DNA from: Brachyspira sp. G79
GTDB taxonomy: Bacteria > Spirochaetota > Brachyspiria > Brachyspirales > Brachyspiraceae
Reading direction: 5' to 3'
Length of the DNA stretch: 61,033 nt
Assembly (NCBI RefSeq): GCF_002379365.1
Contig: NZ_JQIU01000008.1
Span: 983,257-1,044,289, forward strand
Part shown: positions 8,370-55,490 of the stretch, piece by piece
Layout of the letters: each line of letters begins with the position of its first letter
How positions within the stretch are numbered: the stretch's first letter is position 1
Notes under the pieces: model-generated
What the model saw: only the letters and a program-made list of their open reading frames with translations
Database searches by the model: none
What the model was told of the DNA's origin: nothing
Translations under genes and position numbers: made by a program

Positions 8370-9485
8370 TTACTGCTCTACTAAAATATTTTTCTGAGTA
8401 TCTTTGTCAAATATATGAAGTCTATTTAAATCAAAATCCATAAATGCCTGCTGATCTCTTTCATAATCATCACTTGTATTTATCCTTATAGTAATTTGAG
8501 AATCTCCAAAGTTCATATATAAATAACTTTCAGAACCTATCATCTCAATAACATCAATAATAGCCTGTATTAAATTTGGAGAACTGCTTTCTGATTTATC
8601 TTTATATAAAGAAATATTTTCTGGTCTTATTCCAAGTACAACTTCTTTTCCATCGTAAGAATCATCAACTTTTGAAATTCTTTCGTTATTAAGTTCAATT
8701 TCATATCTGTCAAAACTAGCATACCACTTTCCACTTTTTTTAGTTAAAACAGCATTTATAAAATTCATCTGAGGAGCCCCAATAAATCCAGCTACAAATA
8801 AATTTTTAGGACTATTATAAAGTGTTTTAGCATCATCAACTTGCATAATATCGCCATCTTTCATAACAACAATCCTAGTACCCATAGTCATGGCCTCTAC
8901 CTGGTCATGAGTTACATATACAAAAGTAGTTTGAAGCTGTTTATGAAGTTTAATTAATTCTGTACGCATCTGCACTCTCAATTTGGCATCAAGGTTTGAT
9001 AAAGGCTCATCTAATAAAAATACAGATGGATTTCTTACCATAGCTCTTCCTAAAGCTACCCTCTGACGCTGACCTCCTGATAATGCTTTGGGCTTTCTGT
9101 CTAATAAATGAGCTATATCAAGAACCTTAGCTGCCCATTCAACACGTTTTTTTATTTCATCTTTCGGAGTTTTTCTTAATTCCAGACCAAATGCCATATT
9201 TTTAAATACTGACATATGCGGATATAAAGCGTAGTTCTGAAAAACCATCGCAATATCCCTATCTTTTGGAGCTACATCATTAACTAATCTATCCCCAATA
9301 TAGAGTTTACCATCTGTTATATCTTCTAATCCTGCTATCATACGAAGTGTAGTAGATTTTCCACAGCCAGATGGACCTACGAGAATAACAAATTCCTTAT
9401 CTTCTATATCTAAACTAAAATCCTTAACTACTTCTACCTTATTATCATATACTTTTCTTACATGCTCAAATTTTATACTTGACAT
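8370..9485 (-). CDS. Sugar ABC transporter ATP-binding protein (MalK/UgpC/MsmX type)
   Basis: The 371-residue protein is an ABC ATPase with a C-terminal TOBE/OB regulatory domain, as in MalK, UgpC and MsmX, which energise carbohydrate importers at the inner membrane. Walker A is GPSGCGKST, the signature is LSGGQRQRVALGRA, Walker B is VFLLDEPLSNLD and the switch is VTHD. Residues about 235-371 form the TOBE part (LGIRPENISL). No permease or binding protein is nearby, so it is likely a shared ATPase serving several importers, as MsmX does (inference). A good promoter lies about 120 bp upstream. Confidence 0.92.
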   Translation of the reverse strand: MSSIKFEHVRKVYDNKVEVVKDFSLDIEDKEFVILVGPSGCGKSTTLRMIAGLEDITDGKLYIGDRLVNDVAPKDRDIAMVFQNYALYPHMSVFKNMAFGLELRKTPKDEIKKRVEWAAKVLDIAHLLDRKPKALSGGQRQRVALGRAMVRNPSVFLLDEPLSNLDAKLRVQMRTELIKLHKQLQTTFVYVTHDQVEAMTMGTRIVVMKDGDIMQVDDAKTLYNSPKNLFVAGFIGAPQMNFINAVLTKKSGKWYASFDRYEIELNNERISKVDDSYDGKEVVLGIRPENISLYKDKSESSSPNLIQAIIDVIEMIGSESYLYMNFGDSQITIRINTSDDYERDQQAFMDFDLNRLHIFDKDTQKNILVEQ

Positions 9486-9604
9486 AATGTAGCCCTTCCT
9501 TTTGTTTATAAAATATTATTATTTTAGTCATGCATATACTTAATATATCAAAATTATTTTAAGCAAAAAAAATTACAAATTATTAAAAAATCATATATCT
9601 TTAA

Positions 9605-9633
9605 AGTTTAATAGCTTTTTATATAATTGTCAA
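9605..9633 (-). promoter_or_regulatory. Sigma70-type promoter of the ABC ATPase gene
   Basis: Read on the minus strand: TTGACA (9628-9633), a 17-bp spacer, then TAAACT (9605-9610). The predicted leader is about 110 nt long. The -35 box and spacing are ideal; the -10 box is fair. Confidence 0.6.
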
Positions 9634-9843
9634 GTTTTTATAACATATAAATAGATTTTTATTGTTATATTTCACATTTATAATCAATAACATGAAAATA
9701 AATATGAAATTATGTATTTTTCACTTAAAACATAATAAGAAGTTTAATCATAATAGAAAAAGTTAATTATTTTACAGAGTATAAATTATAAAACTTAATA
9801 TTATATCAAAAAATTATTTAATTTTAAATTGAAAATATAATAT

Positions 9844-10040
9844 ACTGAAACAATTTTATTTTGTCAATTTAAATTGCTCAATGTATTATCAACTTTTTGC
9901 CGCACACACATGCATAAAACATACATAAAAGGCTACTTCGTCAAAGTTTTTATCCTTTGAATACTATTCGCTAAAAACTCAATTGATACAGCTTTATATG
10001 TAGGTATTACATATTAAATGTATGATAATACCCAAATTTA
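9844..10040 (-). repeat. Decayed dispersed intergenic repeat, copy 1
   Basis: Read on the minus strand, this stretch shares an ordered series of blocks with the copies at 35860-36205 and 55190-55490: ATTATCATACATTTAAT, a block with AAGGATAAAAACTTT, GTGCGGCAAAAAG, then AATTGACAAAATAAAATTG close to CAGTATA. The order and spacing are alike, so these are homologous sequences rather than chance matches. No coding capacity is preserved. Confidence 0.65.
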
Positions 10041-10270
10041 ATCTAAAAATTTAGTTTTTTACATAACAAAGTGGAGTTGGCATAGACTTAGTTCTAGCAG
10101 AAGGTGTACCATACCCATACATAGCAGTATTTCCTTCAGTTACGGATGGATAGCATCTAAGAACTGGTATTAGGTGCTAGCATAACTTCGCAGCAAAGTA
10201 CAGCAAATATACAAATTTAAAAAATTATTTTTTGAAAAACTATGTTTATTTGAGTATATACTTTTTATTT

Positions 10271-11281
10271 TTATAAAGTAAATGTTTTAAACTCATTAGC
10301 AAGTAAATTAGCGTCTGTACCTACTACTATATGAAGTTCATTATTATTTATTTTTTCTAAAGCTGGATAATACTTCATTATCTCTTCTGTATTAACTTTA
10401 CTCATATCTTTCACTTCAAGTCTTAATCTAGTAGCACAATTATCTACTTTTACTATATTCTCTATTCCTCCAACCAAAGGAAGGAGCAAAACTGTTTTTA
10501 CTTTCTGACTTTCTAATAATTTTTTCAAAGCTTCAGCAAGCAAACTAGCATCAGTGCCTACTACTATATGTAGTTCTGTATCACTTATTTTTTGTACAGC
10601 TGGATAATATTTTTTTATTTCTTCAGCATCAACTTTATTTATGTCTTTTACTTCAAGTCTAAGTCTAGTAGCACAGTTATTCACTTTTACTATATTCTCT
10701 ATTCCTCCAATAAAAGGAATAATAGCCCAAGCTCTGCTTCCATAGCAGTTTTCATTACTATCTTCACCAGAAGAAGTATTAGGAATATTCAATACTTTTT
10801 CAAGCTCCTCAGCCAAAGAAAAAGCCTTAGTACCTACTACTATATGTAGTTCTGTATCACTTATTTTTTGTACAGCTGGATAATATTTTTTTATTTCTTC
10901 AGCATCAACTTTATTTATATCTTTTACTTCAAGTCTAAGTCTAGTAGCACAGTTATTTACTTTTAATATATTTTCTCTGTTTCCAAGCAAAGGAATAAGC
11001 AGTAATGCCCTATTGCATGAACTATCATCAGAAGCCAATATTCTTTCTAAAGATTCTGCAAGCAAACTGGCATTAGTACCTACTACTATATGTAGTTCTG
11101 TACCACTTATTTTTTGTACAGCTGGATAATATTTTTTTATCTCTTCAACATCAACTTTACTTATATCTTTTAATTCGAGTCTCAATCTAGTAGCACAATT
11201 ATTCACTTTTAATATATTTCCTCTTCCTCCTAACAAGCTTAAAGGAAGTATAAATTTTATATTTTTTTTATTATCTTTCAT
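10271..11281 (-). CDS. Stand-alone protein of four tandem PTS EIIB domains
   Basis: The 336-residue protein consists almost entirely of four glucose-family PTS EIIB domains, each about 80-90 residues. The phosphorylatable Cys of the NNCATRLRLE (or DNCATRLRLE) motif is kept in all four, at residues 29, 111, 203 and 282, and each repeat ends with ELHIVVGT. There is no EIIC or EIIA domain and no membrane segment, so it is a soluble protein. Residues 109-151 and 201-243 are identical and nearly identical in DNA, which points to recent duplication or gene conversion. It follows the EIICB gene on the same strand, past a strong terminator. GAGG supports the start. A role as phosphoryl acceptor, buffer or regulator is inference; conventional PTS proteins have one EIIB. 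Confidence 0.9.
   Translation of the reverse strand: MKDNKKNIKFILPLSLLGGRGNILKVNNCATRLRLELKDISKVDVEEIKKYYPAVQKISGTELHIVVGTNASLLAESLERILASDDSSCNRALLLIPLLGNRENILKVNNCATRLRLEVKDINKVDAEEIKKYYPAVQKISDTELHIVVGTKAFSLAEELEKVLNIPNTSSGEDSNENCYGSRAWAIIPFIGGIENIVKVNNCATRLRLEVKDINKVDAEEIKKYYPAVQKISDTELHIVVGTDASLLAEALKKLLESQKVKTVLLLPLVGGIENIVKVDNCATRLRLEVKDMSKVNTEEIMKYYPALEKINNNELHIVVGTDANLLANEFKTFTL
10553..10681 (-). repeat. Internal near-identical EIIB-coding repeat, unit 3
   Basis: These 129 bp encode residues 201-243 of the four-EIIB protein and match 10829-10957 at all but a few bases, with identical protein. The other two units are clearly more diverged at DNA level. Confidence 0.85.
10829..10957 (-). 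repeat. Internal near-identical EIIB-coding repeat, unit 2
   Basis: This is the partner of 10553-10681 and encodes residues 109-151. Synonymous differences are almost absent, so the two units were duplicated or homogenised recently. Confidence 0.85.
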
Positions 11282-11354
11282 TATTAAGCCTCATAATATT
11301 TAATTATTATAATATTAACACAATATTTATTTTATTTCTATATAATATACACAT

Positions 11355-11389
11355 AAAAAACCTGCAGTAAAATAATAATACTGCAGGTT
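11355..11389 (-). terminator. Terminator between the EIICB and four-EIIB genes
   Basis: A perfect 11-bp stem, AACCTGCAGTA (11359-11369) with TACTGCAGGTT (11379-11389), is followed on the minus strand by a run of six T. It separates the two PTS genes, so the tetra-EIIB gene needs read-through or its own promoter. Confidence 0.85.
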
Positions 11390-11418: not shown

Positions 11419-12879
11419 TTATTTCTTAGCTATTTTCTTAAACTCATCAGCCAAAAACTGTACTTTAGGTCCTACAATTACTTGTACAGAAGTTTTTCCA
11501 GGAGTTAAAACACCAGGGAACAATTTTTTAATTTCAGAAGCCTGTATAATAGTATTATCTTTAACTTCTAATCTTAATCTAGTAGCACAATTATCAATAT
11601 CAACTATATTTTCAATACCTCCAAGTAAAGGAAGAAGTAATAATGCTTTTTCTGCATAAGAAGCATCACCTGAAACAGTAACTTCTATTTCTGCTTCATC
11701 ATCATCTTCTCTTCCCGGAGTTTTAAGATTAAATTTTCTAATAGCAAAATCAAATATAACAAAATAAAGTATAAAGAATACTATACCCTGTACAATAAGC
11801 ATGTACCAATGAGTAGCTAGAGGGTTTTTAGTAGATAATAACAAGTCTATTAAACCAGCAGAGAATCCAAAACCAGCCATCCATTTCATACTAGCAGAAA
11901 TAATCAAAGATATACAAGTAAGCAAAGCATGTATAACATATAATACAGGAGCTACAAACATAAATGAAAACTCTATAGGTTCAGTAACACCAGTAAAGAA
12001 ACTAGCAAAACCAGCTGCAAGCATTATAGATTTAATTTTATTTTTATTTTCAGGTTTAGCATTTTTTACAAAAGCCACACAAGCACCTAAAAGACCAAAC
12101 ATCATAATAGGGAAAAATCCTGCCTGATACATACCAGTAACACCTATAGTAGCAGTACCAGCATCTATGGAAGCCTGACCGCCTAAGAAATTGGGTATAT
12201 CATTAATACCAGCAACGTCAAACCAGAATACTGAGTTAAGAGCATGGTGCAAACCAACAGGGATTAAAAGTCTGTTGAAGAAGCCGTATATACCAGCACC
12301 TATAGGACCAAGACCTATTATAGCCTCACCAAAAGCTACCAAAGCACCATAAATTGCAGGCCAAATAACCATTAAGATGAAAGATACTACCATCATAACT
12401 ACAGAAGTAATTATAGGTACAAACCTTCTTCCGCTGAAAAATGCCAAAAATTCAGGCAGTTTTACCTCAGCAAACTTATTATACAAACCTCCAGCTATAA
12501 CTCCGCAAAGTATTCCTATAAATTGGTTATTAATTTTAGCAAAACCTGCAGGTACTTCAGCAACATCTTTACTTTGAATCATAGCAACTGTAGCAGGTGC
12601 TAAAAGAGTTGTTACAACCAAAAAAGCAACAAGTCCTGCCAAAGCAGCAGCTCCGTTTCTATCTTTAGACATACCAAATGCCACACCAATAGCAAACAAT
12701 ATAGGCATATTATCAATAATAGCTCCGCCTGCCTTAATAAAGAATGCCGCAACAGGGCTTCCTCCTCCCCAGCCATTAGGGTCAATCCAATAACCAATAC
12801 CCAACAAAATAGCTGCAGCAGGAAGTACAGCTACTGGAACCATTAGAGATTTACCTATTCTTTGTAGATAATTAAACAT
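11419..12879 (-). CDS. PTS glucose/N-acetylglucosamine-type transporter, EIICB
   Basis: This membrane permease takes up and phosphorylates a hexose or GlcNAc. It has 486 residues: EIIC (about 1-390) starts MFNYLQRIGKSLMVPVAVLP and contains GLHHALNSVFWF and the conserved GVTEPIEF loop, with about ten membrane spans. A short linker with DDDEAE leads to EIIB, whose phosphorylated Cys431 lies in DNCATRLRLEVKD. EIIA is missing but is encoded divergently at 13170. The exact sugar cannot be told from sequence alone. A promoter and an inverted repeat lie upstream, a terminator downstream. Confidence 0.93.
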   Translation of the reverse strand: MFNYLQRIGKSLMVPVAVLPAAAILLGIGYWIDPNGWGGGSPVAAFFIKAGGAIIDNMPILFAIGVAFGMSKDRNGAAALAGLVAFLVVTTLLAPATVAMIQSKDVAEVPAGFAKINNQFIGILCGVIAGGLYNKFAEVKLPEFLAFFSGRRFVPIITSVVMMVVSFILMVIWPAIYGALVAFGEAIIGLGPIGAGIYGFFNRLLIPVGLHHALNSVFWFDVAGINDIPNFLGGQASIDAGTATIGVTGMYQAGFFPIMMFGLLGACVAFVKNAKPENKNKIKSIMLAAGFASFFTGVTEPIEFSFMFVAPVLYVIHALLTCISLIISASMKWMAGFGFSAGLIDLLLSTKNPLATHWYMLIVQGIVFFILYFVIFDFAIRKFNLKTPGREDDDEAEIEVTVSGDASYAEKALLLLPLLGGIENIVDIDNCATRLRLEVKDNTIIQASEIKKLFPGVLTPGKTSVQVIVGPKVQFLADEFKKIAKK

Positions 12880-13169: not shown

Positions 13170-13634
13170 ATGGGTTTATTCTCTAAAAAAATTGAAATAA
13201 AAAGTCCTGTAAAAGGAAAATTGATTGATGTTACTGAAGTAAAAGATGAAGCTTTTTCAAGCAAGGCACTTGGAGATGGAATGGCTATTATTCCTTATGA
13301 AGGAAAAGTTTATTCTCCTGTTGATGGTGAAGTTGTTACTATGGTAGACAGTAATCATGCTATAGGAATATCTGCTAAAGGTGTAGAAATACTTGTGCAT
13401 ATAGGAATGGATACTGTTAAATTAAAAGGAAAACATTTCAAAGCTCATGTTAAGGAAGGAAGTAAAGTAAAAGCTGGAGCCTTATTAATAGAATTTGACA
13501 AAGAAGAAATTGAAAAAGAATATGATATCACTTCACCTATTATAATACCAAACTTCTCAGAATTAAAATCATTAGAAAAAACTGAACATAGAGATGTTGA
13601 AGTTGGCGATGTTATAATGACTATAGTTAAATAA
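13170..13634 (+). CDS. crr: PTS glucose-type EIIA component
   Basis: This soluble 154-residue protein passes phosphate from HPr to EIIB. The family motifs are SPVDGEVV, SNHAIGI with His63, and VEILVHIGMDTV, whose His77 is the expected phosphorylation site; the fold ends GDVIMTIVK. The start at 13170 is preferred to earlier in-frame codons because GAGGAGG lies at 13157-13163 and the promoter overlaps the upstream extension. Its likely partners are the divergent EIICB and the four-EIIB protein. HPr and EI are not in the window. Confidence 0.93.
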   Translation: MGLFSKKIEIKSPVKGKLIDVTEVKDEAFSSKALGDGMAIIPYEGKVYSPVDGEVVTMVDSNHAIGISAKGVEILVHIGMDTVKLKGKHFKAHVKEGSKVKAGALLIEFDKEEIEKEYDITSPIIIPNFSELKSLEKTEHRDVEVGDVIMTIVK

Positions 13635-35859: not shown

Positions 35860-36205
35860 AAATAATTACAATTTGTAAAAAATTAATTTTTTAATTTTAA
35901 ATATTGCAGGGTTTCACAGTTGTGTCCCAGTTCTTTTATGACACCTGTACACTCGTGGAGTATAAACCTCGCTCTGCGTGCAGTAGGCAAGGTGTAACCT
36001 GAATCTTATGTATTATTAAATACATATTTTAAAAATATAAAGTTCTACCAATTATATTTTTAGCGAAGCGTATCCGAATATAAAAACTTTTACGAAGTCC
36101 GAATAGCATGGGCATCAAAAAACTCGATAATTCTATATAAAGTGCATCAGTTGATAAAATAAAATTATTACAGTATATACTGAAAATTTTTAAGTTTGTC
36201 AAAAA
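35860..36205 (+). repeat. Decayed dispersed intergenic repeat, copy 2
   Basis: It shares ordered blocks with copy 3 at 55190-55490: AATTACAATTTGTAAA, a TTGCAGGG block with CCCAGTTCTTTTAT, TATAAAGTTCTA.CAATT, ATAAAAACTTTT, ATAATTCTATATAA, then GATAAAATAAAATT. It carries an insert with GCTCTGCGTGCAGTAGGCA (35971-35989), which also occurs, with one change, in the element at 32920-33143. Confidence 0.75.
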
Positions 36206-55189: not shown

Positions 55190-55490
55190 CAATTACAATT
55201 TGTAAAGATTAATTGTTTAAATTTAAAATATTTGCAGGGCTTTGCCAACCATGCTGTGTGCTACGCAGCACCCCAGTTCTTTTATTGGTATAAAATAACC
55301 AAAAAAACTGCATTTTTAACCCAAATTTTAGAGATTATCATACATTTAATGCATATTTTTAAAATATAAAGTTCTAGCAATTGCATTTTTCATGAAACCT
55401 ATACAAGGATAAAAACTTTTTGTGCGGCAAAAAGGTTAATAATTCTATATAATATGTACCAATTGACAAAATAAAATTGTTCAAGTATAA
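55190..55490 (+). repeat. Decayed dispersed intergenic repeat, copy 3
   Basis: This is the best-preserved copy. It shares ordered blocks with copy 2 (35860-36205), including AATTACAATTTGTAAA, CCCAGTTCTTTTAT, TATAAAGTTCTA and ATAATTCTATATAA, and with copy 1 (9844-10040, reversed), including ATTATCATACATTTAAT, GTGCGGCAAAAAG and AATTGACAAAATAAAATTG. Confidence 0.75.

Follow-up and report, generated by a model that had tools for sequence, protein, structure and literature searches.

The window, by which we mean the whole 61,033-nucleotide stretch of Brachyspira sp. G79 DNA that was analysed, encodes a soluble protein built from four free glucose-family EIIB domains, each of which keeps its active-site cysteine and carries His, 35 residues beyond that cysteine (Cys+35), in place of a nearly invariant Gln. 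EIIB is a known domain; what is new is its occurrence in a free, four-site, His-type protein, and our strongest new fact is this residue change, which sets free and extra EIIBs apart from nearly all sampled transport EIIBs. Bacteria use the phosphorylation state of the PTS as one of their main nutrient signals, and the literature searched contained neither a description of dedicated soluble multi-site acceptors in the PTS sugar branch nor an account of tandem soluble glucose-family EIIBs or of IIB components in Brachyspira, which are gut spirochaetes. We tentatively propose that the protein is an EIIA-loaded, soluble, non-transport phosphocarrier with four sites that would buffer or report the phosphorylation state of EIIA, its phosphate chemistry being a prediction.

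The open reading frame at 10271-11281 (336 amino acids and a stop) had been recognised in an initial annotation, and we correct its strand to minus, the plus strand over this interval being full of stops. The four tandem EIIB domains described there are borne out by four stretches matching PF00367 of Pfam (189.6 bits against a cut-off of 27, E 4.5e-57) and by the NCBIfam model TIGR00826, EIIB_glc (133.4 bits, cut-off 45.75); the cysteines of their CATRLR motifs lie exactly where they had been placed, at residues 29, 111, 203 and 282, and the Pfam search found no fused EIIC or EIIA domain, again as described. With approximate limits taken from Pfam and the structural model, all on the minus strand, domain 1 covers about residues 9-85 (11027-11257; Cys29, His64), domain 2 about residues 91-166 (10784-11011; Cys111, His146), domain 3 about residues 183-258 (10508-10735; Cys203, His238) and domain 4 about residues 262-336 (10274-10498; Cys282, His317). 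The DNA of the four units is a 208-nt direct repeat family whose members share 80-88% identity with one copy; a fifth, more distant copy (62% identity) encodes the EIIB of the neighbouring EIICB.

The structure prediction that the annotation had proposed gave an AlphaFold2 model (mean pLDDT 80.4) of four alpha/beta units, alike in strand pattern and connected by linkers, its weak stretches being residues 1-8 and 169-177. By Foldseek the model has the EIIB fold: it matches EIIB of 1o2f, the E. coli EIIAGlc-EIIBGlc complex, with a TMt of 0.86 and 1.1 A over 73 columns. All of its meaningful PDB matches are to EIIB structures, among them 1o2f and also 3bp8, in which EIIB is bound to Mlc. Profile matches, fold and the Cys and Thr-Arg-x-Arg found in 75 of 75 free domains thus make these domains glucose-family EIIBs, like E. 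coli PtsG EIIB (1o2f, 3bp3, 3bp8; PF00367/TIGR00826) in fold, CxTRLR site and arginine pair. Elsewhere, glucose-family EIIB normally occurs in one copy on EIIC with Gln at Cys+35, whereas Brachyspira has four free copies with His. Stand-alone single EIIBs are exemplified by GlvB and by NagF of Streptomyces; like the four-EIIB protein they have no fused EIIC, but they consist of one EIIB domain, and the NCBIfam GlvB model PRK09702 scored 132 of 321 bits against the four-EIIB protein, far under its cut-off. The window's own genome also contains a single Gln-type EIIB standing alone, an 88-aa open frame (L133) near G000:C8:823354-823437.

An alignment of 75 free EIIB domains of Brachyspira with the 26 attached to neighbouring EIICBs shows the Cys, Thr, Arg and Arg of the active site to be invariant in both groups (75/75 and 26/26), whereas Cys+35, in strand 4, is His in all 75 free domains and Gln in all 26 attached ones. 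Among 80 other EIIBs from Spirochaetota, Pseudomonadota (including E. coli PtsG) and the window's own genome, with Bacillota not sampled systematically, the position is Gln in 77, Glu in one, His in one and cut short in one, and the sole His among the 79 scorable sequences belongs to the first, extra EIIB of a double-EIIB transporter in G316, a spirochaete of another family. Gln at Cys+35, which this work uses as an empirical mark of transport EIIBs, is absent from the free domains, and Lys at Cys-4 occurs in 70 of the 75 free domains versus one of the 80 other EIIBs. As residues alternate along the strand, the side chain of this His is predicted to face away from the helices.

In the tree all free domains group together (SH-aLRT 93), only the divergent extra G316 domain joining them next, and the clade is related to the EIIB of the neighbouring NagE-type EIICB. 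Domains 1 and 4 mostly cluster by position across species and domains 2 and 3 show exchanges, single forks being weak with so few columns; from this positional grouping, the four-domain form is probably old within Brachyspira and has been maintained. Pairwise dN/dS of the free-EIIB genes ranges from 0.12 to 0.37, indicating purifying selection.

A free tandem EIIB protein is encoded in 18 of the 26 Brachyspira genomes, as a complete four-domain frame in 16; G017 has a three-domain form, and in G008 the gene is split over contig ends. The assembly artefact that the annotation had named as a possible refutation is ruled out, as is chance, by recurrence in 18 independent assemblies, among them the single-contig genomes G004 and G010. 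The remaining eight genomes contain no four-EIIB protein, and on the EIICB tree two changes explain presence and absence of the tandem gene. Two genomes have extra free EIIB genes beside EIICB with the same upstream block, one of two domains (L045:8140-8628, G009) and one of three (L044:375-1106, G015). In three species (L052:6575-7585, L055:6847-7857 and L056:6202-7212) the protein begins MLFNLFNKKEK, a possibly amphipathic N-terminus not found in the others; these three genes sit apart from EIICB, directly upstream of the MsmX/MalK-type ATPase gene.

To look beyond the genus, 84,980 species genomes were scanned for two EIIB sites spaced as in tandem domains; the DNA pattern, which demanded TGT as the first Cys codon, then Ala or Val, and a fixed spacing, so that other codings and spacings can escape it, matched only Brachyspira and three Pseudovibrio. 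Of the three Pseudovibrio proteins, the two with complete frames fuse EIIC to two EIIBs (EIIC-EIIB-EIIB), and the one truncated where its locus ends has the same appearance; they share with the Brachyspira protein tandem EIIBs that both have the Cys, and differ in having two domains, fused to EIIC and both Gln-type. The EIIC-EIIB-EIIB of G316 (L114:451-2520), whose gene is followed by one for an EIIA-HPr-EI fusion, resembles the free domains in its first, extra EIIB, with Cys and with His at Cys+35, and differs in its fusion to EIIC, its two domains and its Gln-type second EIIB; double EIIBs thus occur in at least one spirochaete outside Brachyspira among the matches listed. The annotation's statement that EIIB occurs once, attached to EIIC, holds as a rule, with these double EIIBs on EIIC as exceptions, and the search for multi-EIIB proteins in other genomes that it had suggested returned the free tandem form in Brachyspira and, elsewhere, only the Pseudovibrio EIIC fusions. 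A mobile origin was considered and rejected: plasmid and phage records contained no tandem EIIB protein, the apparent 60-90% coverage of the best matches being about 210-340 nt, one domain length, matching several repeats.

Upstream of the four-EIIB gene, on the same strand, lies a NagE-type EIICB of 486 aa (11419-12879, minus; TIGR01998, N-acetylglucosamine type, 640 bits, cut-off 553), which carries the closest attached EIIB, followed by a stand-alone EIIA (PF00358; about 13170-13634, plus; Pfam/NCBIfam and alignment) as the likely phosphate donor; both had been correctly noted as neighbours. This EIIA adjoins EIICB, divergent from it, in 18 of 18 carriers, and the tandem gene adjoins EIICB in 15 of 18, lying elsewhere in three species. 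The stand-alone EIIA and the tandem gene do not occur in step: non-carriers such as G011 also have a close EIIA, elsewhere in the genome. Downstream is a gene for a 371-aa ABC ATPase of MsmX/MalK/UgpC type (8370-9485, minus), which is next downstream of the tandem gene in 11 of 18 carriers, including the three with EIICB elsewhere; a search of the 18 carriers found no close homologue of it in four. The gap between the four-EIIB and ATPase genes, 785 bp here (window 9486-10270), is 61-94 nt in four relatives, and parts of it match about 36035-36098 and 55302-55489 of the window, which suggests that it contains a dispersed intergenic repeat.

The spacer between EIICB and the four-EIIB gene folds into a terminator-like hairpin (11359-11389, minus) with an 11-bp stem, a 9-nt loop, outside the loop limit of 8 in our consensus terminator scan, and a T tract; comparable hairpins fold in 14 of 14 intergenic regions compared. 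Between the hairpin and the start codon stands a conserved, putatively promoter- or operator-like block, AAATAAAATAAATATTGTGTTAATATTA (11310-11337, minus), which occurs only once in the window. A block like AAATAAAATAAATATTATGTTAGTATTA precedes 19 of 19 free-EIIB genes, 28-36 nt from the end of the ATG, including genes located elsewhere and both copies where two exist; Rfam matched no RNA element in the window. Given the hairpin after EIICB and the gene's own conserved upstream block, the four-EIIB gene looks separately transcribed from EIICB. In G007, the NagE-type EIICB (L053:6381-7838) has an in-frame TGA at codon 125, a Cys codon in the window's gene.

In E. coli, phosphate passes from His90 of EIIAGlc to the Cys of EIIBGlc, and two EIIB arginines pair with Asp38 and Asp94 of EIIA. 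The arginine pair is present in 75 of 75 free domains, and in the alignment the window's EIIA matches EIIAGlc at these His and Asp positions. Because these residues are kept and glucose-family EIIAs phosphorylate non-cognate EIIBs (PMC6148471), we consider it likely that EIIA loads the free EIIB domains with phosphate, while recognising that His at Cys+35 could equally impair that loading. Onward transfer from the free domains to sugar is less likely than loading by EIIA, since there is no fused EIIC, no orphan glucose-family EIIC was identified, the Gln is replaced, and in B. subtilis PtsG separation of EIIB from EIIC lowered sugar phosphorylation. The EIICs in the window's genome comprise three with their own glucose-family EIIB, two of cellobiose type and one weak 632-aa match, so that service to an orphan EIIC was rejected, no glucose-family orphan having been identified among the five classified EIICs of this genome; on the same scope, the four-EIIB protein has neither the linked nor the matching separate EIIC expected of a transport EIIB. 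The annotation had suggested a buffer, sensor or relay competing with sugar uptake. Such a role is plausible because the transfer residues are kept on both the EIIA and the EIIB side, but simple competition with uptake is less favoured than a non-transport role, given the clade with His at Cys+35, the promoter-like block of the gene itself and the ATPase gene in 11 of 18 carriers.

In the mechanism that we tentatively favour, the four domains would descend, through duplication, from one resembling the EIIB of the NagE-type EIICB next to them, and EIIA~P, from the nearby EIIA gene, would probably load each of the four cysteines. Because the free domains are untied to EIIC and have His for the nearly invariant Gln, sugar would probably receive little or no phosphate from them; phosphate would instead return to EIIA or be slowly lost, making the protein a reservoir or sink by which the ratio of EIIA~P to EIIA would be set and smoothed. 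A multi-site phosphate buffer or sink shaping EIIA~P is the simplest function, and we count in its favour that the four-EIIB gene of G007 is intact and under constraint beside an EIICB with an in-frame stop. The absence of the protein from eight species counts against this function, and buffering capacity would be limited in proportion to the amount of the protein. Elsewhere EIIA signals through the ratio of EIIA~P to EIIA, with MalK-type ATPases as one target, in inducer exclusion by EIIAGlc; 4jbw, presumably the EIIAGlc-MalK complex, is among the structure matches of the window's EIIA. If the MsmX/MalK-type ATPase encoded next door read out the EIIA~P level, this would parallel such inducer exclusion, and we regard the link as a lead only, since its basis is adjacency in 11 of 18 carriers and four carriers yielded no close homologue.

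More speculatively, and with appreciable doubt, we suggest that His-type EIIBs may be a separate class, loaded by EIIA and uncoupled from sugar transfer, that serves to store phosphate at several sites, like a capacitor, or to carry a signal, the free four-domain form of Brachyspira tuning EIIA~P and thereby the MsmX/MalK-type ATPase or other targets. Loading by EIIA, if it occurs, would make the four-EIIB protein a naturally occurring buffer or decoy for phosphate, with the Gln/His position as a one-residue handle on phosphate acceptance versus sugar transfer in EIIB.

The alternative that survives best, though we think it unlikely, is a regulatory partner or sensor whose phosphorylation state governs binding to a putative partner (the MsmX/MalK-type ATPase, a transcription factor or an enzyme), four copies giving avidity or a graded response. 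Precedent for such binding comes from unphosphorylated EIIBGlc, which binds the repressor Mlc and whose complex 3bp8 is among the structure matches, and the ATPase gene lies next downstream in 11 of 18 carriers even where EIICB is elsewhere. Weighing somewhat against a Mlc-like target, of the two ROK matches in the genome one is a 324-aa kinase-like protein that lacks a helix-turn-helix, and the other, which includes a helix-turn-helix-like piece, appears split over two overlapping frames (L136:927-2116); one PRD protein was found, partly masked. A further precedent is the fructose permease FruA, which has a duplicated IIB, the extra one beside the working IIB (PMC2405797, PMC6872149), and this extra domain acts in protein interaction, reportedly without part in phosphoryl transfer (PMC6872149), whereas all cysteines of the four-EIIB protein are kept; being free and of the glucose family, where the FruA domain is permease-fused and of the fructose family, the protein falls outside the FruA IIB' type. 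SacX of B. subtilis, a glucose-family EIIB protein that gives no growth on its sugar, acts via an antiterminator (PMC6148471), but it is a membrane EIIBC with a known regulator, whereas the four-EIIB protein is soluble and any target of it putative.

Less probable still is that the free domains dock on the NagE EIIC, or another glucose-family EIIC, as auxiliary donors that add phosphorylation capacity for transport. The catalytic Cys and Arg are kept and the tandem gene adjoins EIICB in 15 of 18 carriers, as such a donor would predict, yet EIICB already comes with an EIIB, every free domain has His where Gln is nearly invariant, the gene lies apart from EIICB in three species, and in B. subtilis PtsG sugar phosphorylation fell once EIIB was separated from EIIC. 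A drifting by-product of domain duplication with no specific function, to which the two-, three- and four-domain forms and the absence from 8 of 26 species might point, is highly improbable given cysteines and arginines kept in 75 of 75 domains, dN/dS of 0.12-0.37, the largely positional clustering of domains 1 and 4, and an upstream block kept in 19 of 19 genes.

In G237, a 1177-aa open frame (L116:1040-4570) joins EIIC, EIIB, EI-like and EIIA-like sequence within a single protein, as read by eye.
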